A stretch of 64,000 bases of DNA. It comes from Mesodorylaimus sp. YZB2_4. Taxonomy: Eukaryota; Nematoda; Enoplea; Dorylaimida; Dorylaimidae. The notes below the pieces were generated by a model. It worked only from the letters and a program-made list of their open reading frames with translations, was not told the DNA's origin and searched no databases. The position numbers and the translations under genes are program-made. Where the stretch lies: contig JASANH010001018.1 in NCBI GenBank assembly GCA_030248295.1, positions 496,001 to 560,000 on the forward strand, read 5' to 3'. This document shows positions 1 to 64,000 of this stretch, in pieces. Each line of letters starts with the position of its first letter. The first letter of the stretch is position 1.

Positions 1-1360
1 GATTCCTCTTCAATGAAGACTGTCAAGCGTGTCGAGGTAGTTGTGTTCCCCACTTTAGGCGTATTGCTGGAAACAGTTCGTATTTGGCTGCTGGAATTCT
101 CGGATGCTGCGGATGTTGAGAGAATAAGAGATGCTGCTTGCGTGGTAAGAGTCTTCGAGGTTGCCTTATAAGTCAATTCATTAGAAAGTGCACTGGTGGT
201 TAATGGCTGTTTTCTGCCGGCCGTTGGTTTAGTTGACCTAGTTCCAGTTCTCTGTTTCCTTGTTGAAAATGTGGAGCCAATTGACGATGTATGTAAAATT
301 GCTGTCGGAGTTGAAGCAGCGACTAGCCTATCGGTCGTTGTGTGCACCATTTCTATGAAAGTAGTCTGCTCCAAATGACTAAATGGGAGTTTAGTTGATT
401 TGGTTGCTGCTATGGCTTTCCTTGTTGATATCGTTTGGGCTGATGAAAGAACGGTCTGCATGACCTCAATTTTATCTGAGCTCATTTGAACTGGCGATGT
501 TGCTTCCTCACTAAAGTATCTGCTTGTTGTCTTTTGCGTTGTTTCACTCGTAGCGGCCGACTCTGCTTGAATGGATTTTGTCACTGTCCTAAATTCTGTT
601 TTTGAAACTGTGGCAGCCTCTGGGGTTTTCGATGGATTCGTGGTAGCCTCCGCCAATGCTGATGGTGTGGTTTCTGTGCTAACTTCGAGTGGCTCGATTG
701 TCCTCGTGTGCAATGTCGCACTAGGTCGCGACAGCTCTAATTGATTTGTTGGTGGTTTCGTTGTCTTGGTTACTGCTCTGACTCTCTTTGTTGATGATGT
801 GGAGGTCTCAGATAGGGTGGATGGGAGAACATTTTCTTTCGTAGTCCTCGCTGATACTGAAGAGGTTGTATCTGTGGTGATGGGAAAAAAGGTCATTGTG
901 TCACTGCTAGTTGATGGCTCCATTTGAGTTATTGGAGTTTCATTTGGTGTGGTCACTCCAAGCCTGGTTTTCGTGGGAGCGTATGATGCGGTCGTTGTAG
1001 CATTGATCAATGCTTTCTCTGCAGCCGTTTTTGATTGACTTGTAGTTACGGTGAGCGGAGTAGCACTACTGTGCGTAAGGATGCGCTCTTGGGACGTCTG
1101 GACTGACCTATGGTGCACCGTCGAGGTGCTCGTGTCTGTCGAAGTAAGAAGAGACGTTTCAGGCATGTTGACCAGAGAATTCATATTAGTTGTGTTTGCG
1201 TTGGAAGGTTGTCTGGTCTGTGTTAATGTCGAGGGAGATGTTGGCGTTCTTGAAATTAAAGACGTTGGCGTAGTTCCAGGTGTGAAAGAAGTGGATATTG
1301 AGTAAACGGACGTCCCCTGCCTGCACCTAGACCTTGTCGGAGAATGGATGGATGTCGAAG
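1..1360 (-). other. Receptor F mucin-like stalk exon (partial)
   Basis: After the acceptor TTTTACAG at 1361, one uninterrupted reading frame of about 450 codons runs to base 1, dominated by Ser, Thr, Ala and Pro (for example TTSQSKTAAEKALINATTTA). It is the O-glycosylation-rich stalk expected before the TSP1 repeat. Its phase (1) matches the CTLD7 donor, so splicing could be direct. Confidence 0.78.
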
Positions 1361-4300
1361 CTGTAAAAGACTGCGCTGAGTATAGATGTTTTAGTGAAAG
1401 CCAGAGTCGGCAGCACGACCACCGTGCATGATGGGCCATGGCGAGTGAGGGTAAATTGTTAATCTTCTCTGGGTGGGAAACGCCAACCATGGCTTCTTCA
1501 GCCGCAGTTACGTATAGTCGATGGACTTGCCTTGCCCAAGTAGGAGGCTTTGTCCTGCCGGCTCTGGTCGGCAACAAACTATCCTACTACTGCTTGGTTA
1601 CAGCAACATCTGACCGTACATACAGTATTTGTAATTGAGGCGTGCTACTCACCAAAGACTGAACTTCCTGTCGCCGCCATCTTTACAGCCAAGAGAGTGT
1701 GAGGCTCAGGTGATGACAACCACATTGTCCTATTCGCTCCGAAATAACAAGCATTTGTATCGCATTGCATATTATTTGTCTTTATCCCCGTCGATCCATG
1801 CCGAATATTTGGCGAACCACTTGGGCAATCGATTTTAGGACTTTCGCACCCTGTTCAATCAAAGTCCTAGATATACTCAGTACCCTAGATATTAGCTGTG
1901 TCAAGCTTACCGAATTCGCAGAGCATGCTAAACTCGTCATGTCCATCGCATTTGGACGAATAAAAGTCGAATGGTCGAGATGGATCGACCGTCAGGCAAA
2001 TACCATGGACTTTGGAGCCCCCACCTTCCTCACTGTTGTCGACCACCAGGGTTTTTTCCGAGGTCACTTGCGGTCCGGCGCTTTTATCGTCAATCATCCA
2101 ACAATAATCGGTTAAATTAGAGCCCGACGTAGCACTGCCCGCTCGGGCGCCCAGCCAGACGCGCTTGGGACCAAGATTACTTGCTCTTAACTTACTCTGT
2201 AAGTTGGACATGATTTCGTGATACATGTTATCGTTGTAAAATACAGCGGCACGGTGATAGGCAAATCCATAGTCGCAGTTTTGATATTCGAGGTCCCAAC
2301 TGGAAATTCTGCTGGTATCAATCAGATAGCACGTATTATTGTAGACGTGTGTAACAACGCCTTTGCTGTCCCTGCATGCATCAGTGATTATGCCTGTAAA
2401 AAAGAGTTGACTTTTTTGTTGCCGGACAGATATTCGGTCGATGATTACATGATGATTGATTTGTTCCAGATACTGTTCCCGCGAACAAGGACGGCGCAGG
2501 TGCGACGGTCGTTGTTATTGATATTGGTGGCTGTATGTCGCACGTGCCATGGTAGCATGTCGGATTTCTGCCGTATGTTCCAGGACACGTAGCGTTTTGT
2601 GGAATGTTGCATCCTGAAAGGGAATGGTTGATTTAAGGTGCTAGTGAAGTCCAACTTCCTTTCCTACCGAATTCACATATCACTGCAGGTGTGAACACTG
2701 TGCCAGAACAGGAGGTGCCAAAAAAATCTTGCGATTCTTCTAGTTTCGTTGAGAGGCAATATGGAGCAGGGCCAGACAGAATAGTCTTAACTGAGGTTAA
2801 TCCATTGCTGACATGAGAGCCATATTGGTATTGATTTGTCATCCAGCAGAACTCGGACATATCTGACCCACCGCTCGTGTTTGAGGTGCGTGCGGCAAGC
2901 CACACTGGGCCAGATCTGTTCGCGATGATGTACAGCTGCTGCATGATGTCAGTGTACATGAAGTAGTTGTAGAAAACGGCCATCCGACCGTAGTCCATGG
3001 GTGGATTAAACAATTCCCCAGCGGCATTACTGCAGATGCTGTAGCTGGCATCCCAAGATGCCCTCGAATCCTCCAAGACGTAGCAGACGTTATTGTAGTA
3101 GACTGCTGGAAGCGAAGTTGCTCTGCAAGCCGCTCCACCATCACCTATGATTGCAATATAGTCAATTGGAGGAGCTTCCCTGGTTACTTCACTTACATTG
3201 TGGAGTCTGAGTTGTGGTGGTGGTCTCTTTCAATTCCATTGTCGTCATTTTTGTGGAGTGCTTCGTTGAGGGGGTACTTGTTGGAGCTGCACTCGTAACT
3301 GTCGTGGTCATTGTGGAGCTAGTTGCAGTTGTGGCCTCTTTTGGTGTTAGAGTCGCCGCTTTTGTCGAGTACTGCGTGGAGCGGAAGCTGGTTGAACTCG
3401 AATTCGTTGCTGTTGTGGTCGTTGTAGTGCTGGTCATGGTTGTTTGGGAACAGGTGTCGCACGCGCCAAATGTGGCGTTGCTCGCGTTCGTACAGTCCGT
3501 TGATACACAGCCTGCAATACTTGTAATAAGACAGCCCTCAATCTCGCATGTTACTCTTACCGTATTCATAGATCATTGGGAACACTAAAGAGCCGCCGTC
3601 GTCGCAATCTACGGCGTATAATTCAAATGGGTACGACAAATTCACTGCAAGGCAGAACGGGGCCTTCACAGTTGGGTAATCTCCAGCTGCCACATGGTCC
3701 ATGTTAATAAAATCTGATTTCGACGACACCTTCAGTCCGGGTGTTGACGAGCTGGTCATCCAGCAGTAATCTGACAATTGATCACCCATTCCTCCCGTCG
3801 ACATGGCACCCAGCCAGGCAAGCTGGTTGGAGAGGCTGGTGCTGTTTAGCTTTTGAGACAGAGTAGTCATGACGTTCATGAAAAAGGCGTCGTCCTCAAA
3901 TATAGCTGCGCGGCTGTACCCTTGAGGGAAGGGCAGGCTTTTGTTGTAAGCAGTAGTCCAGGTATAGCTCTGATTTGTAAAAATGACGTAGCAGGCGCTG
4001 CCGGAACTGTAGTAAACGGAAGTGGGGGTATCTTGACATGTTTTGTTCACAGTGCCTAAAAATTTGAAAAGATCCTTGATCAACAAGTTTGTTAAAACAT
4101 ACGGCGAGCTTATATCGACAGTATTAAGGGCTCATTATCAGGTTAGTGTAGAGACCACCACGACGCATGGCTCTTTCTTTCAACGTACTTACATGGGTAT
4201 GCTTTTGACTGTGTCAGAGTCGACATGGTTGTAGTAGTGCTACTCGTACTTGTTTCAGCATTTGTCATCTTGCTGACCGGAGTGATTGCGGTCGTTGATG

Positions 4301-7300
4301 TCGATTCAAGTTCGAACGGGCATGCTCTATCTTGACAGTGAGAAGCAGTCGAACTTGGTGGACAGTCGATCGATGAGTCATCGCAGCCTATCGCGCGTGA
4401 ATTTACTTTAGGCTTGTAAAACGCAATACACGTGCGCATTACTGTAGGAAGTGACAGAGGAGCTTGTCTGCCATGTCATTATGTCATGACAGAAGAGCTT
4501 TGTTCTTCCCCGCGGTCAAGGCCAGCGCAAGTCTTCCAACCTAGCCTGCAGCTGAAGCGACCATCACCCGTCAGGGATTTTAATAGTCGTTTGCCAAGCG
4601 AGCATCGACAGACTGCGGGTTTTAGAAATGTTTTGACCACTCAAAGCTTAAAAACCCGTAGTATTTCGCATATCAATCAATGGCATTTTAGGGTCAAAAT
4701 CGCCAAAAACTGGCAAGTTACTATCTCTGGTTTTATTTCGCAATCTTTAAAATTCGATCACGAGCTAATATGGACACCAGAGTAGCCCTAGAGGAGAAAA
4801 ATGGAGAGAAGATCTTTTAGAGAAGAAAAATGCTACAAAAGTAGACCTGCCCATATGCAGAAGTCACAAAGAACCGCGTTTCCACGACTGTTTCTGAGTG
4901 TCTGCGACCACGCACTCGTTTTCGCTGCGACCTAAAACAGTCGCAGGCGTGTCGCAAGCCGCACCCCCTAACCATGGTACACTTTCGAAATACACGTCCG
5001 GTTCGCGGTTCTTTAAAAGTTCTGAATATGGCTATTTTTGTAGAGTTTCTCCCCTCTACAAGATGCGTGTTTTTTTTAAAGCAGGTTTTGATGGGCACAT
5101 GTGGTGAAATTTATATAAAGTGTGTTTCATTTTTCTATTTTAAGTTATTCGCACAAATATGCGCAGAAAATTTCGAATGTTTACTTTAGGCGGGAATATC
5201 TCACGAATGGCAAGACGTAGGAGAAACTAAAAAAAGCATTGGATAGCTCATCAAATTGTGGTCATTCTGATATATTTTAGATCATCCCAAGACCAAGGGT
5301 TGTGGAGATAAAAGCGATATCGATATCAAGGTTTTTCCGAACCCACATTTTTTTGGCACCCAAAATTTTTGAACGGGGTTTGATCCATGAATACTGACCA
5401 TGCCGCGAAATGATTATCATTTTCGTGGTCCTCATGGCATCTATTTTCGAGATATGTCATAAAACTGTATATGGGGGTCATTTTTCAAGATTGGTCATTT
5501 TGAAGTCGACTCTTACAGACAGTGCCTCTTAAGCGTAATCATCTTGCTTGGATTAAAAGTCTACCCCAACAATGGATTTTGTCTAAAAAATAGGAGCTTA
5601 CCGATTTCACAAATCTTAGGGAACTCAGTTTCGTCGTCGCTCTCGTCGCAATCGATTGCATAAAAGTGAGAGGGCTGGTTCAATTTGACGGCAAGGCAAA
5701 GTGGCTCGCTGGTTGTTGCCTGCTTGTTTCGGGCAAGCGTCATATCAATCGGAGTCATGTGTGAGGACACTTGCGGACCGTTTTCACTTGAATTAGTCAT
5801 CCAGCAATAGTCTGACAATCGACTGCCGCCCGCTGTCGACTGTGCCCCTATCCAGATCATGCTTTCAGCGTTTATTGTTCCGTTCATCTTCTTTAGGAGG
5901 TTCGATGTGATGTTCAAATAGGCGATCGAGTTGGAGAATACGGCTGCACGCGTATAGCCGAAATGAAGTGTTGGGCACCCTTTTGACGATTTTTTCCAAG
6001 TTCTTTCCCTTTTCAACTGAATTAAGTAGCACACTTTATCGTACAGGTATGTGACTGTTTTGCCAGGACTATCTACGCATGCGGAACGGGTGTCACCTAA
6101 AATACGAATCACTGGTGTATACAGTATCCTTTATCTCTTCAGGAAAAATTGAGGCCAATTTCCCCATGTTCTGAAATCTCTGAATTCTACTGTGGATCCC
6201 GCGTGCAGTACTCGTACAGCTTAGTAATATGGAACCATAGTATGGAAATACATGTCAGGATATAATGTTTGACGCACATTCACCTAAAACCGTGGGGAGT
6301 CTGCGTCCACGGTGCACGGCCTCGAGTGAGAAGTGAGAACATGGGTCAAGTGCAGCTGGCCAACCATTTGCCTGGCTACATTGCAGCTAGTTTAGGTTTC
6401 AATAAGTACATAAGCCAACTTTTAAGAGCCGTAGTCTGTAAGGATCGACCGACACCTGAACGCTTTTTTCTGAGCCCTCGATTTTAATGACGAATCTAGA
6501 CCAGTTTCTCGCGCTGATTGTGAATCTGTCATTAAAAAATTCTACTGTATGTTAAGCCGTTCTTGAGATATTTCAATTTAAAGTCGCAAATCGCGTGATT
6601 TTGGTCAAAAATGGGTGGGGTACAGAAAACAATCGTTTTCTCAATAACCAGCGGAGGAAACTCTTTTTTAAGTAGTTATTCTGAAAGAGCATAAAAAACT
6701 GATCGCGCTCATGAACATTTGCATGTTTTTTTACCGCATTTATCATTCGTATTTTGGAGATGTTTGTCAAAGTTCATGAGAATTGGACTGCGCGGGAAAG
6801 AGAAAAAGCGCCACGAAAAATCGAAATCATGGTTTGGACATCTGATTTTCTGGATCTGTATACTCCGAAGCATGCTGAATCTTGCTATATATATATGAAA
6901 AGTCCCCAAGTGTTTAAGCTGGCGACTAAATCGACTTCAAAGTTCCGAAAATTGGTCGAAAACTGAGCTGGTTTTTAAAAACATGCTTATGCAACTGTAC
7001 CTGAGCATCAAAATCCATTCCGCATCGCCATCCAAAGATTTCTATCCGTCCAAATTCAAAGATGTGCCTGTGCGCACATCTTTGAATTTCGAGGGTTAGA
7101 AATGGTACTTAGCTTATACCCAACGCATACAAATCAGTGAAATTCAATTTTTTATTCTCCTGTTACTATAAATTTCAGTGCGTGGGTTATTTACTGCACA
7201 CATTTTTACCAATCAACCATTTGGAGGATGCTTCAAGTAGGCATAAAAAGGAACGGAAAACATGACATCCAGACAACGACATTAGATTATTTATATGTAT

Positions 7301-10300
7301 GTTTTGATTACCTGTTTCTTCATAGCCATCTCAGCTTGTAATAATAAAAATCCTATATCCTAACCCGGAGAGTCAGCTATATTCCTCAGCATGCTTCGGA
7401 GTATATAGATTCAGAAAATCAGATGTCCGAACCGTGATTTCGATTTTTCGTGGCGCTTTTTCTCTTTCCCGCGCAGTCTAATTCTCATGAACTTTGACAA
7501 ATATCCAAAATACGAATGATAAATGCAGTAAACAAAGATTCAAATGCAAGTGTTCTTGATCAGGTTTTTATGCTCTTTCAGAATAACTACTTTGAATTAA
7601 GTTTCCTCCACTGGTTGTTGAGAAAACGATCGTTTTCTGTACCCCACTCATTTTGGACCAAAATCACGCGACTTTAAATTCAAATATCTCAAGAACGGCT
7701 CAGCATAGAATTTTTTAAATCACGGATTCAGAATCAGCGCGAAAAACTGGTCTACATTTGTCGTTAAAATCAGGGGCTCAGAAAAAAAGGGTTCACTTTA
7801 CGGCGGATTTGGTCGATCCTTACAGACTATGGCTCTTGACACACTCAAAAAGCTCCGAGCATTTTGCCGAAGTTTTATTTATTTAATTTGCCGTACTTTT
7901 ATCCTTTTCACACTTTCACGCGCCTTCCTACGTTTCGTCACACAGTATGTCTGATCTTTTCGAATCCAACCCTTCTCGTGCCTATGACAGGGCTCTGTGA
8001 TAGCAAAGTCAGCGTGTCTCTATCGCTACGTAGCTTTACCACTTTCCATCAATTAGACGCTTGGTTACTAACAGCAGGAAGATAGTTGGCTTCTTTGCTC
8101 CTTGACTCCTCACAATCAGACAGGCCCAAGTTTCTATCAGCAGCAACTACCATACCAGCATTTTTACGAATAGCATCATACTGTATGCACCAATGCATCG
8201 AAAAAAAGCCTTACTCAAAGAAAGGAAGGAAATTCAGTACTCACATGAGCCAAACGAGCATTTGCCTGGAGCATTGCAAGGCGAAGATGGGGCGGTAGCA
8301 GTTGTCGCAGAAGAATCAGTTACACTTTGGTCAATGCAGGTTGCAGCTGGCGAATTAGCATCACAGCCTGTGGCGTGAAAAATTTTTGCTGTTTTTCCTA
8401 AATTTTATCAGGATCTGCTTACCGAATTCGCACACCATGAAGAAGTGATTGCTATTGCACTTCATGCCCATTAGGGTTTCCGGGCTGGAAATGTTGATGG
8501 CGATACAAGAAGGGCTTAATTGTGTGGCTGCCATTTGTAGTTGAACAGCCGTCCGGCCATCTGAAAGTTGAGAGCCCTGGGTGCAGCCATCGCTCATCCA
8601 GCAGTAGTCGGATACAGTATCGCCAGAGGACACGGCCATGGCACCGAGCCAAATGGGCTGAGTTACAGAAATATTTGCTGAATGGCCATTTATTACAGAG
8701 ATACCATTGGCTAACAATTTCAATTTTTTAATAACTGTATTGTAGTCGCTTGTGCTGTTGAAAACAGCTGCCCGACCGTAGTTCATGGGTGGATTAAAGT
8801 ACTTTGTATATTGGCTGCAGACGGCATAGTTGTTTATCCATGTATCCTTCCTACTGACCAATCCATAGCATTTGCCGCGGTACAGATATGTGACCATATT
8901 ACTACGCGTATATTCTGGACATGAGTTGACACTGCCTAGAACAGAATGGGACTCGAAAATGTTTCACCTAGCGGACAAACCTGGACCATACAGTACGTAC
9001 AAGTCGAAGAACTGCTAGAGCCTAAGCCTTTTCCAGGGCATAAGCCACTAACAGTGGGAGTTGCAGTCGTAGATGCGCTCAAGCTAGATTTGCTGGAGCT
9101 GGTCACTGTGGTGCTTGCAATGGTTGTGGGTTTGAAGAACGTAGATTTAGATATTGCGGGCGAACTGGTTGTTGCTGTAGAGTTTGCTGGTTTGAAGGAT
9201 GCAGCTGTAATGACTGTGGCGAGAGACGATGAAGCCGCAGAGGCAGTGGGCGAACTGCTCACGGATGTGGAGAATATACATTTCGAGGTAACGAGCGCAC
9301 TGATGGTTGCCGTAGCGTATGTTGATTTGGAGGATGTAGCTGTAGTGGTTGTGGCAAGGGAGCGTGTATTCAAGGTAGTGGGCAAGCGGGCTGTAGCTGT
9401 GGGCGTTGGAGATAAAGCTGTTGTGGTGGGGAAGAACGCGGATTTGGAGTTTGTTGGCGATTTAGTAGTTGCTGCAGTGGTTGTGGATTCGAAGAATGCA
9501 GCTATTGTGGGTTGGGCTTCGGAGAGCGCGGATCTGGAAGCTGCGGGCGAGCTGGTTGCGGCTGAAGTGGTCGCGGCTAAACTGATCGCGCCTGAACTAG
9601 CTTTGCTGGAATTATTCTGTCTTAGACTGCTTGTACTCGAGCCGGTTGCCTTTGAAATGTCTGGAGTCGAAGTAATGGTGCCTGACGTGGTCGCTGCAGT
9701 AGATTGGGCAGCATCGAAAGGACAGACGCTGGCTGAGCAGTACCCATTAGGTTGCCCTGGGGGGCAGTTAATTATGGATGATCCACAGCCTGTAGAAAGA
9801 GAGATCTCGTTTGCTTCTGTCAGAACGGTAGTGCGCCCTTACGGCTTACCCAGTTGATACATCATGAGGAAGGTCTTTTTAGTTCCATCCAGGTCGCAGT
9901 CCACGACGTGCAAGGCGAATGGATGAACGGTACTGGCTGCGAGGCAGAATGGGTCGAGTACAGTTGGGTGATCATTAGTTGCTGTTCGATCAAAGATTAG
10001 TAAGCCGGGTTGCGAAGAAACTTGTGGCCCATTGGTAGTCGAGTCGATCATCCAGCAGTAGTCCGACAGTTTGGTACCATTGCCAGTTGTCGCTCGTGCT
10101 CCCAGCCACACTAAACTGTCGGATAAGTTTGCTTGTTTCAGCTGGCCCAACATGTTGGTCATGATTTTCAAATAGTCATCACTGTTTTCAAAGACGGCTG
10201 CGCGTGAATAGCCCACGCCTGCCCTGGGCTTTTTCGTGTACATCGATTTCCAGCTGCCAGTGTTGTTTGTGATTATCATATAGCATATATCATTATGCAG

Positions 10301-13300
10301 GTAGGCGACCACATTGTTGGTAGTGTTGCTCGCACACACGGCTGTCACATTACCTGGGACATCAAACATGGCTGTATCGCTGCAGCATTCTGATATACAA
10401 CATGAGCATGATACACTGTGGACAACTTACATTCTGCAACGCTTGTCGACTGTGCTGTAAAAAGGTATGGAGTCGTTGAAACAATGGAGTCAGATAAAGA
10501 AACTAAAAAGTAAAAAGTACCTAGTATTTAAAAAAACACGCACGCGTCAGTACGAGGCGATTCAGCGCCTACTGTTCCTGCCCCTGTTTACCACATCACC
10601 AAGCACTTAACTGCACACTCAAGCGTGGAGGGAGACATTATATGTACAAGAATTTATTTGTCGGGTCGCAAGTCGAGCACTCGCCCGTAACTGCGCTCCT
10701 GGCGTGAAAGGCAGACGCCTAACCAACCAGGCCACGAGCCCACCGAGCCCGGCCTATTGCAACCAGCGCGGCCAGGCGGCGGGAGATAGTCCATGAAGTA
10801 AACACCCCTATTGGAGGCAGGTTAGTCTCGCGACTATACATGCCCTCGAAACATCAACCAGAGAGGTTGATGTCTCGCAGCCAGGGAGAGTATCGATCTC
10901 CCGACCGCCCAGGAATGCTGGTTACACTATTGCTATGTGCTGTATAGCACTATACCTCGACCTTGGTCCTTCTATTGTACCTGGATGGCATGTAACCACT
11001 CAAGACAAAAAAAACGAATTTTGGGCTTGTGAGCGGAGGCTGAGCCTTCAGTCTTCAGTTTCCTACCTACATTATTTTATGAACAGTTTTCGTCCCCGCT
11101 TTCTAGCCCCTTCCTGAATTTCGTTGGTAAATACATGTGTGACAAACAGTAGGGTACAGAATGTACGCAAATGAACGGTGCATTTTAGCTGGACGTGCGT
11201 CATAGGCTGCAATTACGTTTAATATAGTGCACCTGGTTACGGCGAATACGTAATTAACTTGTTGCGATGCACTTCCAAAGAGAACAGAAAGTAAGGTTAG
11301 AACAAATATGTAGAGGCTTCATTTTCAGCCTAAAGACGCTTACAAAAATTTGAGTTCTGAGCGAGATTTGAACCTCCGCTCTGAGACTACTGTGAGGGCA
11401 ATGAAGATCAAGTTATGCAAATGAGTGTGACCTCGTTGATGTTAGGCCTGTCTGGTGATAGTTGGTGATTGCAGTATGTGGAACTGGTCTCCCTTTGTCT
11501 AACGTGTTATTTGTTTGTTCTGTGCCGGTGCACCCTTGCTCTTTAAGTAGATGCTCGTTTGACTAATCAGTTTTCGTGCCAACGTATGCTCGGTACGGGT
11601 GAGTAGTAAACCTCTTCTTATAAGACACGAGGTCTTATAACACTGGTTAAGCGTGCAAATAATCATATCTAAGTTACCTCTGCGTGCCAACGTATGCTCG
11701 GTGCGGGTGAGTAGTAAACCTCTTCTTATAAGACACGAGGTCTTATAACACTGGTTAAGCGTGCAAATAATCATATCTAAATTACCTCTGCACCACCATC
11801 ACGTGCCGCTTATAGTTTCAGGAGACATACCGGAAATGTATGAAGAATAGACTCTGAGTTCATTTACAAGCTTCTAAAATTATCCGTCTCACTGTATCAT
11901 AAGTGAAACTTTTATCGAAATCGCCAGGGTTGAGGCAGACAAGGTGAGAAATTGTGCAATCATGTCATGTGCTAGGTAAAAGTGTGGGGCTCGTCTGGCA
12001 AACGGTCCTATTGATGGAGCCAGCAGGTGGAAGCGTCATTCGTCAGAGCGATGTTTCAGCCACGCAACAGGTCGCGACTTTGCTGGTTGTTCGGTCCATC
12101 GCGAGGTACCAGAGCCCGTCGACTGGTCACTCTGCAGCAATAGCACCTAGAAGGATTGCGCAGGGTCCGGAATCAAACCCTTTCACAATCGATGCCAATA
12201 CATAGATGAGTGACCTAAGTACCTGGCTGATGGCTTGGTGAATCAGGCCTGTCACAATAAGTCGACTACTGGAGACTCGCAGCCAGGTACGTTTGCTCAC
12301 ACTGTGTCCTTCGCTCAGGCGTTTGGTGATGTGTTAAAGCGTGAATGTGGCCATGTGACCTTGCAACATGTATTAAGCCAAGCCTAGGGCGTTGCCTCCC
12401 TGCTCCTTCTCTATGCGCATATTGTAACGTTATCAGCTGCTCGCGTACGTTGTCTTTATTGTTTTGCTTTTTAATGAATTTGTTGGCCTCAACTCACTTG
12501 AACAGGGTCCGTTTTTTCCCAGCCAGATTATGTAACCTTCTCCTGGTAGGCCATGGCGAGTGGGAGAGAATACATAATCGATACTCTCCCCTGGCCAGGA
12601 GACGTCAGCTTCTCGTCAGTAAGCAGTCAACCCTTTCATAGACATAGCTACACGCGAGAGAAGACCGCCACACGGTCTCTGTGTCCGCTAGGAGCGCCTA
12701 CGCATGAGGGCATCCTAGACGATGACCCCGGCTATGAACAAGTCGGTGTTCGATAGCCCCAGCCGAGGCTTCCGTCTTTCGACTCGGAGGACCTCGGCGG
12801 TACTGGGTGAGCCACCCACGGTTGGCTTGCAGGGTCAGTGTGGGTTTATGCTTGACAAACCGATACTCTTTGACGGGGAATCAAAGCAGGATGGGCCCAG
12901 TCACCTGGTGCCAGGCAATGCAGGTAGACTAGAGCCGAAGCTGCATCACCGGGGCCGCTACGCCTTGCCGTAATAGCGAACGTGGCTAAGCGCACTCAAG
13001 GGTAAAAGATGAATCTGGACATTGAAGATTCAGGGGCAGTGAACCGCAGTTTTTATGACTTACCTGATGAAACGACGGTCGATTGTGGTTCAGTGGTGAT
13101 CATATTTGCACTTGTTGTCGGCACTAAAAAGCCACACGTTTATTCGCGCAAGAGCTCGTGAATACCCGCTTGAAAGACCACGGTTATAAAACAAGGAAAA
13201 AGCTATTGCGAGCTTTGATTGCTCTGTGCTGGCTGCTGGTGCCTAGATGCTCTACGCTGTAAATGCAATTTAACATCAAGCCACGTACCGTTGCTCCCAA

Positions 13301-54620: not shown

Positions 54621-56001
54621 TCAAAGGCGGCAAAATTTCGTTTGGATTCGACGATAAATATTCTTGACGATTAGCCGAGCCTGGGCATAGGCAGATTCAC
54701 TATTGGAGAATTCCCTCTCTTGTTATCACTTACCCTTTCGTTCGAGAACGTATGATAAGTGTGGATGAAGGAGCCAAGCAAAACATTGATTGCAAAGACG
54801 ACTGTGAACAAAGGAATCTTCTGATAATAGATAGCCGTCCAAGACATAAACCATGAAGCGAATTGGGTGCCAAAGACGAAGATTAGACCCGCATGAGCTA
54901 GCCTGCATGAAGGAGCTTTATAAGAATTTAACCTTTCGGAAGTGAAGTCTTCGCATTACCTGCACGAAGTGACCACCAGGGACTGTCGACGCGTTAGCCC
55001 GTATCCTGTCGCTTCGACCACTATCGCAGTCGGCCATGCGATGGCGGCAACAGTGACAAAGGCTGCTAGCATGACCCTGTCCCCTGCATTGATCCAGCAC
55101 CTAAAAAGGACACTTTTGCCATAATAGATCAGGGCATATTTTTGGCTGGAGGCAATAATCCATTGTCCCGCTTACGAAAAATCAGACATTAAGCTATTGT
55201 ACGATGTCGCTCCTGTCACTCCGACCACTACGGCGGGCAAACCTGAAACCAGATGATTAAATCACGACTATAAAAACTGCTTGTGCCTTAAGGCATGCAA
55301 ATTTACCCCAAGAAATTCCTAACGCAGTTTTCAAATTAATCAATGAGTTTTGACCCAAGACCACATCCGTCAATACAGTGTAGACGTGAAGGGCTTCCAC
55401 GCCTTGCAACATAAATGTCACGCTAAAGAAATATTGCAATGCCAGCGCCGCGAGCTTGCAAACGTCCTGAAGTGTGCTCTCACAATCAGTTTGAAACCCT
55501 CACGATTCTTCAAGAAAGTACTCACATGGCTGAATCGAGCGTCGTCTCGGGCTGCCAATGTCATTAGGATCAAGTGAGACATAAAAAGACTAATATCTTG
55601 GTTTGCGTGGATAACTTGAAGATAATAGGTGTGCCTAAGAAAAAAGCACTTTCATTTAGAATGAGCCATCTAGTACCTGCGTGATAAGTGTAACCAGCAT
55701 TCGGGGCGGTCGGGAGTGATTAACATGCACCTCCTAGCTGGGAGACGCCAACCTCTTCAGTTGATGTTTCGAGAGCAGGGCATAGTCGCGAGACTTGCCT
55801 ACCTCCAGTCGGAGTTTTTTGCCCAGAGACTTCAGTCTCGACTATCTCCTGCCGCCTTGGTGCGCTGGTTACAAGGAGTGAGCTTTCGTACCTGAGAATG
55901 ATGAACATTGCAATCGATAATCCTGCGCCAACCATGATCCATGTGCATCCGATATTCATCATCGCTGTCGCTGCAGTCTTTTCTATTTCTGACATTGGAT
56001 T
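54621..56001 (-). other. Receptor B seven-helix domain and tail (7 exons)
   Basis: Exons 56001-55892, 55634-55526, 55466-55307, 55242-55176, 55100-54960, 54902-54734 and 54680-54621 carry TM1 to TM7 and the tail. The TM1-TM2 intron is enlarged by a GTAACCAGC-ended repeat insertion. ECL2 reads CWINAGD; TM7 ends TYHTFSNER. Confidence 0.87.
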
Positions 56002-59000
56002 CTAAAAGAGCAGAAATAGAATAGCAGAATTTAGGCGCAATTATATTGGCCCCATTGTACTGTATGTTATTAACTCTGCAAGACCCAGCTGGATATCAGT
56101 AGCAGTATTTATTGGATCGATTCTCGAAAGGGACCTGTTTGAATACGCTTTTCTCCTTGCTTTAAAACAGCGGATCCAAATCGTGACAATGCTCTAACTC
56201 CTGATCGGGGTTAGAGCATTCGAGCATTCTCTTACATGTGTCCTGGCCTTTTGGGACCAGTTCCTCGAAGTAGAGGTCTTATATTGCTGCATTCTTATAC
56301 AGTAGGTTATCCCATCCTTTAACCCATCATGCCCAGCAGTCATAATATGATACTGTAACTCCTGACGCCTCTACTATGGTGTGTCAACCGACTCTGCAGG
56401 AGCAGCTTTACTCTCACGGTTTAATAGTCCCCAGGACGGGACCTTCCAGGCTGGTGTTTTAGGAGCAAGGTCCTTCTTTTGTTTGGCATTTGCTTCTCTC
56501 TCGACAGTTCGTTCATAGCCATGTTTGCATGGTCAGTGTCGAAACCGCCTCTTATCATTAGAAGGGACTTACTAACTACATTGCCTCAATCAGGGGTGTT
56601 GACAGAAGCAGTATTGTATGAAGGACACCCTGTAGGGGTCATATTATCTACTATCTTTCCCCAATGCAAAAGATGTTTGATTTGGTATTTTGACGTCTTG
56701 TGCAAAAGATGCTAAGCGCTTACACATTCTGGGAGGTCATCGCAAGCTGCTGTTTCCGTTTCAGGTGCGCAAATTTCCTCATTTCCGCTGGTTGGTCTAC
56801 GTGTCCGTTGCCGGACGACACCGTAGCCACAAGTCGATGCGCACGAACCATAGGGGCTCCAGTCACCGAACTGGCAACTGCCTATTCGCGAAGAAAAAGT
56901 TATAACTCTTGATAATTTGTGGCCCTTCAATTTACCCACCTCGAAATTCTGGAGACCTTAACGAAGTTGTCGACTGATTATTTCTGTTCCCACTAGCTTC
57001 AGCCTTCGCTGCTTCAACTGTTTCTGTTACTAGTCGAGGCAATGCTGCTCTGGAAGATGTCGTATATGCTCCTTCGAATCGTGATGATGGTGTTGGAGAT
57101 TGAGACGTGACGTGTTCGATAGACCAGCTCGCATCAAAAACAGAGCTCGTCTCTTGGGTCTCGAGGTTTTGCGCAGGATCTTGTGATTTTCTTGTACTGT
57201 GCATCGAATTTAGACTCTCAGCTACAAAAGCAATTGTCTTTGTCACCCCCCACCACCAAACCACGCGAGGGCTCCCCCCTCCCCTCCCCTTTACAGTATA
57301 ACCCCCCCCCCTCTCCCGGAAAGAAACCCCGGGAAAAATGGGGCGAGAAAAAACTTCTCCTCCCTCGCCCCCCCCCCCCCCCCCCCCCCTCCTCCCCTCC
57401 TCCCCCCCAAAAAGTCTTTCCCCCCCCCCCCGCCGGCGCCGAAGAAAAAAAACCCGCTCCTTCATGAGACCCCATTGGATTGTTGTATTTAAGGGTCCTG
57501 AGATTATGTTCCGTCGGATGGTGTTGAAAGAGCGTGTTCGTCCGTGGAGTAGGCTCGAGATCAATTGGGTCTGAGGATACTACGAGATGCGATTTTAGAT
57601 TAGGTATCAGCGTGCTAGGGGCGGCTCGGCTTGTTGCTGCTGAAACAAGCGGATTCTCTGCTGCTATTGTATTGCTTCCTATGTTATTAGTAGTTTGTGC
57701 CACAATAGTTTTCTGAGTTTCAGGTGTGGGTGCGAGGGTGAGCAGCTCCGATATTGGGTCCTCTGGAAAACTAGGCTCCAATTCGGATAGCTTATTATCA
57801 CGATTGCTCTCCGACTTTATGAGCATCCAAGACGTCAGAAGGTTTGGAGAATTGGCCTTTAACCTTGATGTGGTACTGCCATTGGGCTTCTCCTCTGCCG
57901 TTGATTTTTGGTCTTGGACAGTAGATCTTGTATTCTGAGCCTCAAAAGTGAAGTACGAGTTTGTGGCAGTGTAGCCATTGCGTGCTAGGCTGAGATCAGT
58001 ACTAGCCTCGTCAGTGCTATGATCGTGAGCTGATATTTGCAGCTGAGTGCTTGATGCTCGTGCCTGATCACTAATAGCGGTTGACGCGTGCAGAATAGTC
58101 TTTGGTAATGGGGTTTCTTTCAAGGGTGTTCTCTGGATCCGTGGCAGATCCGTTCCACCTGACCAGTTCGAAACCATATCGTCTGGGGTAACAGTATTCC
58201 CACTGACTTCAAGAAGTGGCTCAGTAACAGTTTGAATTGCGATGTGTGAACTTGACGCCTGGCTCGCTGGTCTTCCCTCCGTCTGTTGCTCACCTAATGT
58301 AGCATCTAGAATGTAGTACTCATGATTTGCTTTTTGTGTGGTAAGTACAGGTGATGGGAAAAATCCTGTTGCCAATTGTTGAGAAGTGTTTTTACTTCGT
58401 AGATTTTCCCGGTTTAGCAGTTTTTCTAAGGCCGAAAGGGGTGGAAAAGATCTTACGAACTGTGACTGAAATGTAGAGCGGGTTTTAGCCTGGGTAATTG
58501 ATACAGCATTATTAATTTCTGTATTTGCCACGGTGGTATCAAATCCAGATCTATGGCTAGTGGTAACTGTGGTACTTCTGGAGGTGATACCCAACGGAGC
58601 CACTTCAGAATCGCTTCTGAAAGTGGTTTGAGCTTGGTAAGGGGAGGCGATGGTCGACGTGACTGCAGTAGCAGTAACAGTTGGTGATGTTGAATGAGTC
58701 GGGCCCTGGGCATAGAACTCTGTCGACTGAGGTATGTCCACAGCGGGGCTAGTTCGGGGTGTGGCGTGTAATTGCCTCAGTGACGGCGTGGTCGACGCAA
58801 TATCTGACCGCTGTGTACTCGTAGCTGAAGTATTGCCTGGGATTATGATAACAGAACTGGGGCTGTTTAAAGCGATAGATGATAGTTGCAATCTTCCTGA
58901 TGATGTTGTAGTTCCTGACACTAGAGTCTCATCATTGCTGGTTAAGTGATCTGGTGCGGTGGTATCAGGACCCATCACAGTTGATAGCTGGTCAGTCTGT

Positions 59001-62000
59001 CTCGCTGAAAGCATTTCAGCCATTGTGGAAGCTGGTGTGCTAAGTAGACCAATTGAAGGCTGGACTATCAGTGGCGTACTGATGCCTGGTTCAGGCGGGG
59101 TCACTTCAACATATTCAGAAGTACTATATCTTTGGTTTTCCACAGTTGGTGTCATGATGTATGTAGGTCTGCTTGAGAACCTCACTCTTGATCTTTTCCT
59201 CGAGGTCGTCAATGAACGGGTGTGCGTCGAATTAGGGGCCACTGACGCCGTCCCAGACGCCTTCTCTGTTGTGATCGCTGCAATAACGGGTGTGCTTTCC
59301 GAACCGTACTCTATGGACGCAAGCAGATCATAATGAGGTTGCGTAGAATAGGGCTGGCTGGGGATATTTAAGCCTAGGCCCGTGGACTCCGGCAGTGCTG
59401 TGCTACTGGAGTGAGCAGTCAAGGATACTATTGGGGTTGTGAGGGCGGACGTCTTATCGTTAGCAGTTGTCTCATTGGTTAACAAAGTATGCAGGCTTGA
59501 ATGTGGCTGATTTGTTGGTGGTAGACTAACTGATGATTTATGCGAGTTGCTGGCAAAATCTAGATTAATGCTTCCAGCAGAATAATAGTTCGGAGCTAGA
59601 TCCTCACCAGTTATGGTTTCTACAGGCTTCGATGTCATTTTATCTAAGTTTGATGTTGTTTGTGTGCTGGAATGAGTTGCCAAAGCAGTTTCGACGCTAG
59701 AATACTCTCCAACCGAACTAATTACTGGCTCTGTTATGCTGATACCTGGGCTGGATTCAAGTAGATTGGTTTGGGTGGTTTGAGAGGACTTGAGAGTAGT
59801 TGACGGTGGCATTGGTGATCTGATGGTGGCAATAGCTGTGGAAGCGAGTGACGCTGACGATTCTACACCTTCAAAACTTCTTTGCACGGTAGCGATGGTA
59901 CTGTCCTTTTTGGTATTTGGAGGCGTTAGAGTGCCAATTGGATTAGTTGCGGCTGCACGTGTCGATGTCGGCATTGAACCGAGAGCAGCCAAGGTCGAAG
60001 AAATGATTGCAGAACTAGCCATGCCAGCAATTGCTGCAGAAGCGGTAGTCATTTCAGGTCTTGTGCTGCTAGCAGCTGAAGTCTGGACTGAAGAGGATAA
60101 GTAAGTTTTCATGGAGGATGAGGGGGTACTTCTATTTACGATTGATGAGCCGAACGAAATATGTATTCCAGTGGAGGATCTCGTTGAACTTGTACGTGCT
60201 GCCACCGTTGCGCTTGTAATGTTTCCGCTGGACGACCAAGACATGGAGCTGGAAAGAGCGCTTGCCACAGCAGACGGTGCACTCTCATGGTCAGTCGAGG
60301 TAAGAGTTGTTATTTCGTTGTTAGGGCTTGTGCTTGTCTTGTATGCCGCAGGAGAACTAAAGGTGGTTGTGGTGCTTCCAAAATGGACGCTTGAGTTTGG
60401 CACTTGTGACGATGAAAGCGAGCTCGCCGAATTTGTGGTTGTCGAGTCAATGAATTTGCTTGAACTTATCGTTACTGGGGCATAAATCGTGGACTCGGAT
60501 GTACTTGCCTGGATTATGTGCGTCGTTGTAATTGCTTTCCGCGATGTTGACGACGCCACTGATGCAAAAGTCTTTGGCGCATAAGGACTTGAGGGCTGTG
60601 CTGACGATGCAACTATCTTGTTACTTCCTGCTGGAGTAGATTCAGAGTGCAATGGAGGGGTTGAAGCGGACGATGAGAAGAGCGTCGACGTTTTTGCTCC
60701 TCCTAATCCCAAAGTCGTGCTACTTATGGGCAACGGACTTGAGACACTGGGGCTTGTGCTTGTGTGTGCTAGTGTTGGCAGAGAAGTTAGAATTGGACCT
60801 GAACTAGCGCTGGAGGCGGTGTTGGTTTTAGTAAGTGTGGTTGAGTGTGATGTCGTGGAAGAAGCCGTCGAAACTGATGAGCTTTGGTTAATGACTGTTG
60901 ATGGAGACAACGTAGCTGTTGTCTCCAAAGGTGCCGCCATACCTGAACTTTTAGCAGTGGATAAAATCATTGACGTTGTTAGCGAGGCAGTCATCGACGT
61001 GAATGTCGAGACCGATACTATTGGCAAAGACGTTGCAGTTGTCGTGAGTGCAGACTTAGATGCTGATGTGACAAACGATATGGATGTGGACGAAGGTGTG
61101 GTCGTTGGCGTGGGCACAAAAGTAGATGTTGTCGTTGGCCTGGATGTAGACGACGATGCAATCGCTGGCGTCGATGGAGACACGGCTGTGATCACTGGCA
61201 TGGACGTTGACGTGAATGAAGAAATAATCGTTGGCGTGGACGCGTACATAGATATTATCGTTGGCCTGGATGTAGACGACGATGCAATCACTAGCGTCGA
61301 TGTGGAGGAAGATTGTGTCGCTGATGTCGACGACGCAGTACTTGTGATCACTGTCGTTGGCGATGACATGGATGAAGACGTAATCGCTGGCGTGGACGTG
61401 GACATTGACGTTATTATTGGCTTGGATGTGGAAGTGGATGAAGATGCAATCGCTGATGTGGACGTAGATGTAGTTCTGATCGCTGGTGTGGATATGGACG
61501 CAGATGTTAGTGTTGCTAAACTAGTGGCTAGCTGTGTTGACACACTTGACGTTGTTCCAGTGGTCTCGGGGGCCATCGTAGAGATGGGTTTAGTGTAGTT
61601 CCAACCGAATGAGCAACTGCAAGTTCCAGCTCCAGAGCACTCAGTCGATGGTTGCGGTGGGCCTGGGCAAGTAGCATTGTGGAGACTGCACCCTGAAATA
61701 TAAGGCTGTCGCGACCTATGCTAGTTCTGCTGAAAGACGGCTTAAAGTGCATACCGAACTCACAGATAACGGGCTTTGTTAATGCACAAGGTACCCCGAA
61801 GACGTCGTATAGCGCGTAGAAAACGCCTTGTTTCTTCTGGCGACTAAGATATAATGTGAGACACGATTGATTGGGCGCATTGGAGCAACTGTAGCCTTCA
61901 AACTTTATGGGATTTGGAGTAACTTGTGATCCGACTGTGTTTGCGTCAGTCATCCAGCAGAAGTCGTCTAATTCGCATCCTCCAACAGGCGCTATGGCTC

Positions 62001-62703
62001 CCAGCCACAGCGTCAAGGGCATGGTCATACCACCGTTTGGTCTACCCCCAGGCACATATGAGTTAGCAGCTAATGCGCTGAACGATGTCATAACTTCATA
62101 AAACGTCGCATCATTGTTGAAAATTGCGGGTCTTCCGTAGGCCATTGGTGGCTGGAATAAACCATCTTTTTGCTTTGCACAAACGTCATACGCCTTTGAC
62201 CAAGAGCCAGCCGACGCGGATGTCATGACGTAACATTTGTTACCGTATTTGTAGCTGGGAGATCCCAAAGCATCCGGAAATAGGAGGCTATTGACGGGAC
62301 ATTGCAAGTCAATGTCACCTGATTAAATGAAATAAAGACATAAGCAATACAAATAAAATCTAGAAATCGATTTTACTGAAAATGTCTCTGTGGGTATCTT
62401 AAAGCCTCTTCAAAAGAAGCCTAAATAAGGAGACCATTTGTGTTACTCGAATATTCCGAATTTAAATCTTGACGCAAGAGTGTAATGAGCAAAAAAATAG
62501 AAACTGCCCTACGTTATGATCTGCCAATGCATTTATCCCCATTCCCCAAGGGGGGGGGGGCAAATTTTTCTGAATTTCAGTATGTTTTTTGGGGGAGGGG
62601 TGAATGCTTGAAGAAAACGGGTGTTTTTCTTACATGCTTGTCCGTATGCCACAAGTTCACCAAAATACAACAACGCAAAAGCGAGACACAAAGAAATGAT
62701 CAT
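54621..62703 (-). CDS. Receptor B: complete CTLD-mucin-TSP1-7TM adhesion-GPCR-like receptor
   Basis: Eleven exons are inferred: 62703-62634, 62318-61755, 61692-56940, 56881-56724, 56001-55892, 55634-55526, 55466-55307, 55242-55176, 55100-54960, 54902-54734 and 54680-54621 (TGA). Exon 1 is a clear signal peptide (MIISLCLAFALLYFGELVA) ending in phase 1, which fits the CTLD exon. The CTLD has the most cysteines of the set (nine). The stub (GCSLHNATCPG..., CSCSFGW) leads into a Ser/Thr-rich stalk of about 1580 residues, a TSP1 repeat (DWSPYGSCASTCG) and a 7TM domain whose TM1 exon starts NPMSEIEKTAATAMMNIGC. The tail is 19 residues, ending in KFCRL. The mucin exon contains a poly-C/G stretch at 57236-57470 that shifts the reading frame and looks artefactual, because normal Ser/Thr-rich coding resumes on both sides. 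The gene lies only about 500 bp downstream of receptor A. Confidence 0.85.
55690..55872 (-). mobile_element. MITE-like element, copy 3, inside receptor B TM1-TM2 intron
   Basis: This 183-bp copy, inverted relative to copies 1 and 2, has perfect ends gtaaccagc and gctggttac. It accounts for most of the length of an intron that is short in the paralogues, so it is probably an insertion tolerated by splicing. Confidence 0.68.
56724..56881 (-). other. Receptor B TSP1 repeat exon
   Basis: This 158-nt exon encodes SCQFGDWSPYGSCASTCG, VVRQRTRR and CDDLPEC. It is in phase 1 to 0, like its paralogues. Confidence 0.86.
57236..57470. other. Poly-C/poly-G segment, probable assembly artefact inside receptor B mucin exon
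   Basis: Homopolymer runs of C (one over 20 nt) with sparse A/T interrupt an otherwise ordinary Ser/Thr-coding exon. Coding is normal up to the codons for NNPMGSHE and again from SLNSMHSTRKSQ, but in a different frame. This resembles low-quality read or gap-fill sequence rather than biology. Confidence 0.65.
61090..61500. repeat. Minisatellite-like repeats in receptor B mucin exon
   Basis: Within coding sequence, blocks such as tggatgtagacgacgatgca recur at 61141 and 61267, 126 nt apart and in frame. The minus-strand peptide is a degenerate array of P-x-I-x-S-M/S-x-ST-P-x-I-x-SSSTS units. It is probably length-polymorphic. Confidence 0.6.
61755..62318 (-). other. Receptor B CTLD exon
   Basis: This 564-nt, phase 1-1 exon is the longest CTLD here, with SYKYGNKCYVMT, AYGRPAIF, LWLGAIAPVGGCELDDFCWM and VICEFG. 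Nine cysteines are visible, including an extra pair-like GGC...FC and YSC...SC. Confidence 0.87.
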
Positions 62704-63203
62704 CGTGAAATTTATTGGTTGCGTTCGAAGGACAGTTGTGGCGCTCCTCTATGAAGAGTACAGTAGATGCACCGCCTACGGCACGCACAAAAATAAGACA
62801 AATTGGCACTCCTACGAGCTAGCTGTAGACAATGAAAACTGAACGTGGGCAGGTGCGGTGGTCTGAACCAGAGAGGAGACAAATGATCGTCGCCTAGATG
62901 CCGTTCAAACCAATGGATACATTGTCTGCCTTTCTTTCTTTTAACTTTTTGTGATGCATGGCTAGAATCTTTAGATGGTAAGCCTACATATGGACGAGTC
63001 CCAAATTTATACTCTGCAAGCCTTGGGAAGACAAGCACAGAATAACCAACTGTAACGTTTTTCCTCGGCCACAGCATCTACTCTAATATTGGCGTTGATA
63101 GAACACCAAACGGGACTCGAAGCAAAGTCCAAGCTACAGTAGCTCCAATACTGTATACCTGTATGTAAACACTGCACAACAGAGTGGCAAGCATTGTGTC
63201 TCG
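62704..63203. other. Intergenic region between receptors B and A
   Basis: Only about 500 bp separates the receptor A stop from the receptor B start codon, so the 3' end of A and the promoter of B must share this interval. Nothing else is recognisable. Confidence 0.6.
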
Positions 63204-64000
63204 TTAAAATATCATGCGCTTTACTCGGCGATACAAACTTCTTGCTAAAGATCGAGCCTAAAAGAGGACAAATAATGAACTGACTGCCAGCTCTTTTCCT
63301 GAAAGACACTTACCTTTTGGTTGGAGAAGGCGTGATATATCTGAATAAAAATACCAAGTAAAACATTTATGCCAAATACAACTGTAAATAAGGATATCTT
63401 CTGGTGATAGAGTGCCGTCCACGACATGAACCAGGAGGCGAATTGTGTGCCAAACACGAAAATCAATCCAGCGTGGGCGAGTCTACAACAAAAATTGGCA
63501 AGATGAACATAGTGTCTTTGGTCTTTGTTCTGTCTGACCTGCATGACGTGATAATAAAAGACCGCTGGCGCGTCAGACCGTATCCAGTAGCTTCGAGCAA
63601 GATAACTGTCGGCCAGGCGATGATCGCTATGGGAAGAAACGTTGCCAGCATGACAATGTCGCCCACATTGATCCAACATCTGTGACAAAGATAACTTTTG
63701 GCACTAGTAGACTAGTCGATGAAGCGTGTACGCACGAAAAGTCAGACATAAGCCTGTTGTATGACGTCGCTCCAGTAACGGTGACAATGATTGCAGGCAG
63801 GCCTAAAACTACAAATCATTTTCAGTATTTGCGTCATTCCAGAGTATGCTAGCCATGCTCACCCCAAGAGAGTCCTAACGCTGTTTTCAATTCAATCAGT
63901 GAATTTTGACCAACGACCACATCAGTCAGGACTGCGTAGGCGTGAAGCGCCTCCATGGCTTGCAGCATGAAATTCACACTAAAGAAATACTGAAGGCCCA
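63204..64000 (-). CDS. Receptor A, 3' part: TM3 to C-tail of an adhesion-GPCR-like receptor (truncated by right edge)
   Basis: Five exons are visible: 64000-63863 (TM3, open at the edge), 63802-63736 (TM4), 63679-63539 (TM5), 63482-63314 (TM6-TM7) and 63257-63204 (tail, TAA). They encode the family TM3 core (LQYFFSVNFMLQAMEALHAY), the ECL2 CWIN, a TM5 with PIAIIAWPTVILLEATGYG, TM6 (GLIFVFGTQFASWFMS) and TM7 (FTVVFGINVLLGIF, then YHAFSNQK). The 17-residue tail is strongly basic (ARSLARSLYRRVKR). Exon boundaries match those of B to E exactly. It is closest to receptor B, sharing GATSYN in TM4 and the GYGLTR segment after TM5. The ectodomain lies outside the window. One donor (after TM4, TTTTC followed by GTGCGT) is weaker than the others. 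Confidence 0.85.

Follow-up and report, generated by a model that had tools for sequence, protein, structure and literature searches.

What is encoded by a locus in which lectin-like heads, Ser/Thr-rich stalks and seven-transmembrane (7TM) modules recur in the same order, and what might such an array be for? We address this question in a 64,000-nucleotide stretch of the genome of the nematode Mesodorylaimus sp. YZB2_4 (the window; positions 496001-560000 of contig JASANH010001018.1, here C39, in the 145.1-Mb, 1,067-contig assembly GCA_030248295.1), and use window coordinates unless C39 or another contig is given. A tblastn search with the exons of gene E, combined with splice-site modelling, places six receptor genes, A to F, head-to-tail on the minus strand. 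Their common domain order is a signal peptide (five of six genes), one to seven divergent C-type lectin-like domains (CTLDs), a Ser/Thr-rich stalk, one TSP1 domain, a class B 7TM module and a short tail. Comparison across the assembly gives good support to an expanded family of large predicted cell-surface receptors with this architecture, whose paralogues appear to be mosaics.

Architecture and extent of the receptor family

All parts of receptors B to E lie inside the window, which takes in the 7TM end of A and the heads of F; the head of A follows at about C39:566163-566681 and the TSP1 and 7TM of F at C39:492323-493879. The search area for 7TM modules was the window plus 9 kb on each side, and there the module of A spans 64319-63311 and that of F -2338 to -3677 (the other four are in Table 1). 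Sixteen CTLD-like heads are present in total, seven in F, five in C and one in each of A, B, D and E, as the first-pass annotation of this DNA had anticipated with heads of one to at least seven CTLDs. That annotation also described six receptors on one strand with no unrelated gene between them. The single strand holds within the window, where only B to E are entire, but the cluster as a whole is mixed, with plus-strand members at C39:437-478 kb. Ten of the 92 listed open reading frames, drawn from gaps, introns and opposite strands (seven plus, three minus), gave no Pfam family above cut-off and a sole weak match (GST_C_4, E=0.06), in agreement with an uninterrupted family. One plus-strand member (C39:465754-478715), possibly a broken copy, has a C2-like head in two pieces, a C3-like head, TSP1, and a 7TM match with stops (C39:478518).

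Across the assembly, a head query gave 64 matches on 14 contigs, and a 7TM query gave 180 matches, the best 150 of which form 61 clusters, 33 with two or more hits. The six window receptors thus belong to a family of at least 33 multi-hit 7TM modules, distributed over 12 contigs, nine of which also bear heads. TSP1 lies within 1.5 kb upstream in 26 of the 33 modules and a same-strand head within 15 kb upstream in 27, mostly (21) at a distance of 4-7 kb, which is roughly what one stalk exon measures. As a control, a same-strand head 3-10 kb away was found upstream in 27/33 modules versus downstream in 7/33, and on the other strand within 10 kb in 0/33; away from the crowded C39 and C83 arrays the bias persists (upstream 10/14, downstream 1/14). 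Genome searches for Lectin_C, TSP1 and 7TM scored 150 candidates each, and the spacing counts used all 64 head matches, 150 of 180 7TM matches, and 41 of 149 TSP1 matches plus three from tblastn of the array, the other TSP1 matches being over 150 kb away from any module or on different contigs.

Signal-peptide-like exons with a phase-1 T/GTAAG or T/GTAAA donor lie upstream of the first head in A, B, D, E and F; as further candidates the same scan returned an extra ATG for A and for F, an ATG in the region of C and, in B, an additional donor. What looked like a CK motif behind the signal peptides turned out to be the splice donor itself. Of the 16 heads, 12 are followed by an identified donor, phase 1 in every case, and 13 have a phase-1 site among their candidate acceptors; the exon of head C4 can be read directly as phase 1-1. 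Heads appear to sit on symmetric phase 1-1 exons, so that gain, loss or movement of a head would leave the frame intact. A short stretch with cysteines, followed by Ser/Thr-rich sequence, separates successive heads and, in B and C, where this can be seen, also opens the stalk. The stalks of B to E are 1,093-1,517 codons long; Ser+Thr make up 34-45% of them, and as much as 59% of a 150-residue window, which fits the mucin-type stalk proposed earlier and, given this composition, makes O-glycosylation probable. In B the stalk changes reading frame near a G-rich run at about 57.4 kb (a homopolymer-like run at 57368-57408, C on the plus strand), which may reflect an intron, a sequencing error or damage.

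The 7TM module is the most readily classified part of the predicted proteins. Pfam searches of single exons had missed five of five heads and two of four 7TM exons, and the 7TM exons were spliced before the later search, in which 7tm_2 was found in six of six proteins at E≤1 (best in gene E, 5.7e-18, with 65.5 bits where the cut-off is 20.6). Used as a joint profile, the six 7TMs returned 39 PDB sequences at E≤1; the top 21 are adhesion G-protein-coupled receptors (GPCRs), led by L3 at 5.6e-14 and followed by D1, E5, L2 and others, with the VIP, GLP-1 and glucagon receptors entering from 1.2e-3. C129 and C203-W204, which we take to be the third-transmembrane-segment (TM3) cysteine and the extracellular loop 2 (ECL2) CW pair of class B2, are unchanged in all six. 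The 7TM is therefore predicted to be class B and closest to adhesion GPCRs; profile searches on the spliced proteins had been named in advance as a possible refutation, and they leave it in family B. The six modules share the same exon set and phases, with all chains open and the first donor of F 12 bases further on, and the modelled introns are mostly short, 27 of 33 measuring 51-75 bases; these short introns end in TTTT(T/C)AG. Since the splice model admits only GT-AG introns that preserve the frame, only intron positions and lengths count here as evidence. After TM7, a basic spliced tail of 17-26 residues can be read as the end of the protein in five genes, all but E, its peptides lying in an open minus-strand frame. 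What resembles a repeated or mobile 7TM gene occurs elsewhere in the genome, as thirteen 7TM stretches that lack introns, measure about 240-250 residues, share 26-29% identity with the window 7TM and lie within open frames 370-1287 codons long (contigs C688, C731, C130 (2), C885, C253, C159, C343, C24 (2), C103, C278 and C1); three lie within 1.6 kb of a contig start.

One TSP1 per receptor, as first proposed, is present in all six genes. The genome search placed PF00090 above cut-off in A (2.6e-3), B (1.5e-4) and C (6.3e-8) and did not list D, E or F, where TSP1 was placed by similarity and weak Pfam matches; in the three spliced proteins that hold the region, PF00090 was found in two and TSP1_spondin in three at E≤1, gene E scoring under the cut-off of either family. 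In B, C, D and E the top-scoring TSP1 acceptor is phase 1, and only the stalk of C has a donor above threshold (phase 1, 60 bases before the TSP1 exon); none passed in the other three genes. The last TSP1 cysteine of D, E and F lies about 14 residues from TM1, which leaves no space there for a GAIN domain. The GPS profile (PF01825) has 11 genome matches, none on the 12 contigs with family multi-hit modules, no fold search for a hidden GAIN in the stalk having been made; some of these matches adjoin other 7tm_2 genes, for example on C58 and C72. With neither GAIN nor GPS found, self-cleavage that exposes a tethered agonist is an unlikely trigger for these receptors. The adhesion-type label given to the 7TM at first pass consequently stands for the 7TM sequence, which is nearest to adhesion GPCRs, but not for what lies beyond it.

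The heads share CY...W...C and WLGA motifs, more cysteines and a CE(F)G end. When a profile of 15 heads was compared with the PDB, 58 of 58 sequences at E≤10 were CTLDs or CTLD-bearing proteins (best 3e-4), and with a 35-head profile all but one of 46 hits at E≤1 were such proteins (45 of 46), a collagen adhesin at 0.24 being the odd one out. Most of these matches are short and centre on CY...W...C; the best, the snaclec agglucetin, aligns both ends in order. Against a profile of Lectin_C domains from the same genome, built from four of 140 matches, the 35 heads align over 107 columns with P=2.4e-4 and an hhalign probability of 44%, and the 15 heads with P=0.0015 and 17%, compared with P=0.5 for the 7TM profile as control. 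The identification of the heads as CTLDs, made at first pass, is thus sustained by comparison with the PDB but not by Pfam, and a divergent CTLD as their predicted fold is plausible, if weakly so. A pattern scan found EPN, QPD and WND, the motifs (EPN or QPD, and WND) of calcium-dependent sugar-binding CTLDs, in none of 37 heads, and calcium-dependent sugar binding is for this reason unlikely. For Lectin_C itself, 150 of 233 genome candidates were scored and 140 match, none on C39 or C83 among the matches listed. A separate array at C21:899552-951984 holds at least 40 ordinary Lectin_C matches and is distinct from the lectin-headed receptors, and a search of a phage collection with one head as query gave no match.

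Mosaic paralogues and unequal divergence of heads and 7TM

When the locus is compared with itself, highly identical patches appear that run through exons, introns and linkers alike and then stop abruptly, some of them inside exons. Over the tract shared by C and F (Table 1), DNA identity is 84-99% per 100-base window and falls to about 60% in the middle of head C5. D and E are 94-98% identical from 26,050 to 25,650 and 88% in the TM3-4 exon, whereas identity is about 50-75% upstream of the tract and no more than 66% past 25,550. These patches are tracked by synonymous differences, on which protein selection should have no bearing. Between D and E they number 41.0/45.5 sites in TM1-2 versus 6.0/65.0 in TM4-TM6 (p=4e-19), and between C5 and F6 3.7/39.5 in the first 66 codons versus 40.3/60.8 in the remainder (p=1e-8). 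Comparison of C with a five-headed paralogue at C39:595-606 kb gives, from head 1 to head 5, synonymous divergence (dS) of 1.33, 0.57, 0.29, 0.07 and 0.06, with 0.31 in the 7TM, an about 20-fold shift along one gene pair (head 1, 66/106 versus head 5, 6/97, p=2e-18; heads 4-5 versus 7TM, p=5e-7). These patterns give good support to paralogues that are mosaics produced by non-allelic exchange, whether gene conversion or unequal crossing-over, a make-up described here as new.

Trees of 37 of the 64 head matches, the 16 of the array included, and of 11 of the 33 7TM modules carry the same signal. Head classes mostly follow position, alpha first, beta second and gamma later, also in the C83 genes; the exceptions are F and a beta head that stands ahead of an alpha head at C83:359763. 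The 7TM of F and its head F1 group with D and E, and heads F3 to F6 with the classes of C1, C2, C4 and C3/C5, several deep nodes being weakly supported. The simplest reading of this split grouping is that F may be a D/E-type receptor that received a C-type head cassette.

Heads and signalling modules have diverged unequally. A and B are 79% identical in the 7TM and 40% in the heads, and D and E 87% in TSP1 plus 7TM and 40% in the heads, which accords with the local expansion of diverged heads on a conserved signalling module that was proposed for this array. The ratio of non-synonymous to synonymous divergence (dN/dS), where computable, lies at 0.05-0.12 when entire 7TM modules are compared and at 0.15-0.55 in heads or parts of them, some dS values being near saturation, and heads appear less constrained than the 7TM.

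Recognition, adhesion and relation to known receptors

Adhesion GPCRs are usually viewed as conserved, with the GAIN domain as central to function. The window receptors resemble them (class B2; nearest ADGRL3, ADGRD1 and ADGRE5) in 7TM sequence and in a large modular extracellular region, and differ in that no GPS was found, TSP1 sits almost on TM1, the heads are CTLD-like and the tail is short. Thrombospondin repeats are known in adhesion GPCRs B1/B3, according to PMC13197933. PMC4302439 reports that 12 of 40 adhesion-type 7tm_2 receptors of the sponge Amphimedon lack a GPS domain and that some lack N-terminal domains; the window receptors likewise have no GPS found, but carry a very long, ordered N-terminus. 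Natural killer (NK)-type and snaclec CTLDs (CD69, CLEC12A, agglucetin) provide the best profile matches to the heads, with the same Cys/Trp pattern and the same lack of EPN, QPD and WND, whereas the middle region of the heads has diverged past Pfam recognition and the heads are joined to a 7TM. The polycystin-1 family combines a CTLD, GAIN and 11 transmembrane segments; a CTLD on a multi-pass membrane protein is common to both, and the window receptors differ in having a 7TM and no GPS found. By analogy and without any claim of homology, the array also resembles the sea urchin Sp185/333 immune genes, described in PMC5103432 as a cluster of genes that tends to diversify quickly. A protein that combines CTLD, mucin stalk, TSP1 and 7tm_2 was not described in the literature searched, which mostly excluded subscription journals, nor in the accessible portions of PMC13197933, PMC12716839, PMC4967905, PMC12909245 and PMC4302439; lancelet-specific 7tm_2 architectures are mentioned in PMC4967905, with caution over prediction errors.

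We favour, at about even confidence, a lectin-headed and GAIN-less receptor family that has been shuffled by exchange and serves as a diversified recognition set. In such a family the heads would bind a cell-surface or secreted partner, probably without calcium in the manner of NK-type CTLDs; the stalk would keep them far from the membrane; and binding or pull may pass via TSP1 to the 7TM and a G protein. The sequence strongly supports the movement of head cassettes and pieces of 7TM between neighbouring genes by non-allelic exchange, and the array might respond to non-self, conspecific, or food or microbe cues. Recognition is suggested because head number varies, cassettes are exchanged and the signalling unit is conserved, and the exchange of head cassettes strengthens the suggestion. 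A more specific version is a good deal more doubtful: variable recognition based on GPCRs, in place of immunoglobulin, leucine-rich repeat (LRR) or NLR proteins, in which multi-lectin heads are put together and reshuffled in the germ line as symmetric-exon cassettes, through gene conversion along tandem arrays, and the receptors signal without GAIN cleavage. If true, a family with over 30 members that lack GAIN and can exchange their lectin-like heads would demonstrate a 7TM usable without GAIN, and GPCRs would join the receptors diversified by recombination.

Several observations weigh against this interpretation, in whole or in part. No head lies within 15 kb in 6 of the 33 modules and no TSP1 within 1.5 kb in seven, and five of the 14 head contigs have no multi-hit module. 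Pfam Lectin_C matched 0 of 35 heads at E≤1, and the hhalign probability for a CTLD reaches only the 44% given above. The scan yielded no signal-peptide exon of the T/GTAAG kind for gene C, and one of three internal control stretches contained a weak ATG (7282), the other two having no candidate; C1, C2, C3 and D have a higher-scoring acceptor elsewhere, and four of the 16 heads are without a donor. The 7TM identity of D and E owes partly to exchange, and gene-wide dN/dS is below 1 in every measurable pair, giving no sign of positive selection on heads; nor does non-synonymous change differ between heads 4-5 and the 7TM in C and its paralogue at C39:595-606 kb (p=0.58). Gene conversion is common in tandem arrays, where it can produce patchy identity neutrally, without any adaptive cause. 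A putative role in recognition, whether immune, gamete or allorecognition, was first proposed from local expansion with diversified heads and a conserved signalling module; cassette exchange adds to it, and these selection data are a counterweight. A diversified recognition set is what can best be inferred, and G-protein coupling is putative.

The main rival holds that these are structural or mechanosensory adhesion receptors of epithelium, glycocalyx or cuticle, expanded for dosage or tissue-specific use, with old functional differences among heads in place of discrimination. Purifying selection on heads and 7TM modules, the long stalk with TSP1, and head classes that are old and retained all fit such a role, which we nonetheless consider somewhat unlikely: at least 33 modules, 64 head matches, one to seven heads per gene and cassette exchange would seem excessive for it. 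It is improbable that gene models have fused secreted CTLD-mucin genes with alternating, separate TSP1-7TM receptor genes. Head-to-7TM exon linkage in each gene is predicted only from the genomic sequence, a false Lectin_C fusion is recorded in lancelets in PMC4967905, the signal-peptide scan found no exon for C and some spurious candidates, and a stalk donor before TSP1 passes threshold in C but not in B, D or E. Against fusion stand the signal-peptide exons with a T/GTAA donor that precede first heads, the phase-1 TSP1 acceptors in four genes with the phase-matched stalk donor of C, and the strand, order and spacing of head and 7TM kept in 27/33 modules versus 7/33 reversed.

Collapsed or chimeric haplotypes could in principle mimic patchwork identity in a repetitive array assembled to contig level, the more so as the tracts are mostly 88-99% identical. 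Yet the tracts are non-identical and have differing partners (C/F, C with the 595-kb paralogue, D/E), E has about 600 extra intron bases within its tract, and there is no N in the window or its two 9-kb flanks, so that an assembly artefact appears very improbable. We give least credence of all to a decaying pseudogene array. The 7TM match with stops at C39:478518, the frame change in the B stalk and the lack in E of the tail exon seen in the other five would suit decay; opposed to it are six open 7TM chains with splice sites at equal places, dN/dS under 1, and 63 of 64 head matches free of internal stops, all 16 in the array among them.

Coordinates and other observations

Table 1. Receptor features and exchange tracts in the window (all on the minus strand; S+T, Ser+Thr).
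Feature	Position	Strand	Basis or remark
Receptor A 7TM exons TM3-TM7	63311..64000	-	tblastn and splice model; TM1/TM2, TSP1, stalk and head outside window
Receptor B signal-peptide exon, phase-1 end at CAT/GTAAGA	62634..62703	-	signal-peptide scan
Receptor B single CTLD-like head exon, 3' end approximate	61753..62318	-	
Receptor B Cys-mini module and Ser/Thr-rich stalk, 38% S+T	57420..61692	-	frame changes near 57.4 kb
Receptor B TSP1 exon, phase-1 acceptor at 56881	56724..56881	-	PF00090 E=1.5e-4 at C39:552724-552864
Receptor B 7TM exons	54731..55998	-	tblastn, splice model, Pfam
Receptor C head C1, class alpha	49641..50156	-	tblastn, head tree
Receptor C head C2, class beta	47274..47749	-	tblastn, head tree
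Receptor C head C3, class gamma	46375..46856	-	tblastn, head tree
Receptor C head C4, class delta, phase 1-1 exon	43829..44323	-	splice reading, head tree
Receptor C head C5, class gamma, mosaic with F6-like first part	42942..43418	-	splice reading, identity windows
Receptor C Cys-mini module and stalk exon, 1093 codons, 45% S+T	39608..42886	-	
Receptor C TSP1 exon	39387..39547	-	PF00090 E=6.3e-8
Receptor C 7TM exons	38181..39324	-	tblastn, splice model, Pfam
Receptor D signal-peptide exon	34484..34562	-	signal-peptide scan
Receptor D single head, class epsilon	33808..34317	-	tblastn, head tree
Receptor D stalk, 34% S+T	26960..31154	-	
Receptor D TSP1 exon	26783..26940	-	similarity, weak Pfam
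Receptor D 7TM exons	about 25542..26729	-	tblastn, splice model, Pfam
Receptor E signal-peptide exon	23411..23468	-	signal-peptide scan
Receptor E single head, class epsilon	22805..23311	-	tblastn, head tree
Receptor E stalk, 34% S+T	17690..22250	-	
Receptor E TSP1 exon	17459..17616	-	similarity
Receptor E 7TM exons	about 15665..17405	-	tblastn, splice model, Pfam
Receptor F signal-peptide exon	14004..14088	-	signal-peptide scan
Receptor F head F1, class epsilon, clusters with D and E heads	13419..13948	-	head tree
Receptor F head F2, delta-like	9850..10353	-	head tree
Receptor F Ser/Thr-rich linker, heads F2 to F3	8940..9838	-	
Receptor F head F3, class alpha	8423..8935	-	head tree
Receptor F head F4, class beta	5602..6096	-	head tree
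Receptor F head F5, class delta, 93.5% identical to C4	3561..4055	-	head tree
Receptor F head F6, class gamma	2663..3144	-	head tree
Receptor F head F7	1911..2393	-	head tree
Receptor F stalk, first part, runs on below window	3..1583	-	
Exchange tract C with F (F copy about 2926-4065)	43200..44340	-	identity windows, synonymous differences
Exchange tract D with E (E copy about 15760-16987, ~600 extra bases)	25640..26250	-	identity windows, synonymous differences

Repeats of several kinds are interspersed with the receptor genes. An inverted repeat of about 460 bases, 85% identical (6424-6878 and 7386-7837, between F3 and F4), looks like a transposon remnant; dispersed repeats of 75-84% identity occur at 10756-10928, 37168-37349 and 55687-55874 and also at 11396-11640 and 53686-53931, and a 108-base tandem duplication at 98% lies at 11575-11791. 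A degenerate CTTAGG (=TTAGGC) array is found inside the receptor cluster at 36294-36412; exact (TTAGGC)5 occurs at 823+750 places in the genome, some internal and some at or near contig ends, and (TTAGGG)5 at none.

Among other loci, mir-2 and bantam are protostome miRNA families, and three of four mir-2 matches are above cut-off, with two bantam matches both below it. Taken with the TTAGGC arrays, the short introns and the mitochondrial code of the COX1-like insert, they point to a protostome, perhaps a nematode. At C73:251445-254668, inside a large contig, full and partial COX1 copies lie in opposite orientation, with more partial copies elsewhere and a COX1 protein that seems atypical of nematodes; these are probably nuclear mitochondrial inserts, and the COX1-like insert reads best with the invertebrate mitochondrial code (TGA=W, AGR=S, AAA=K).

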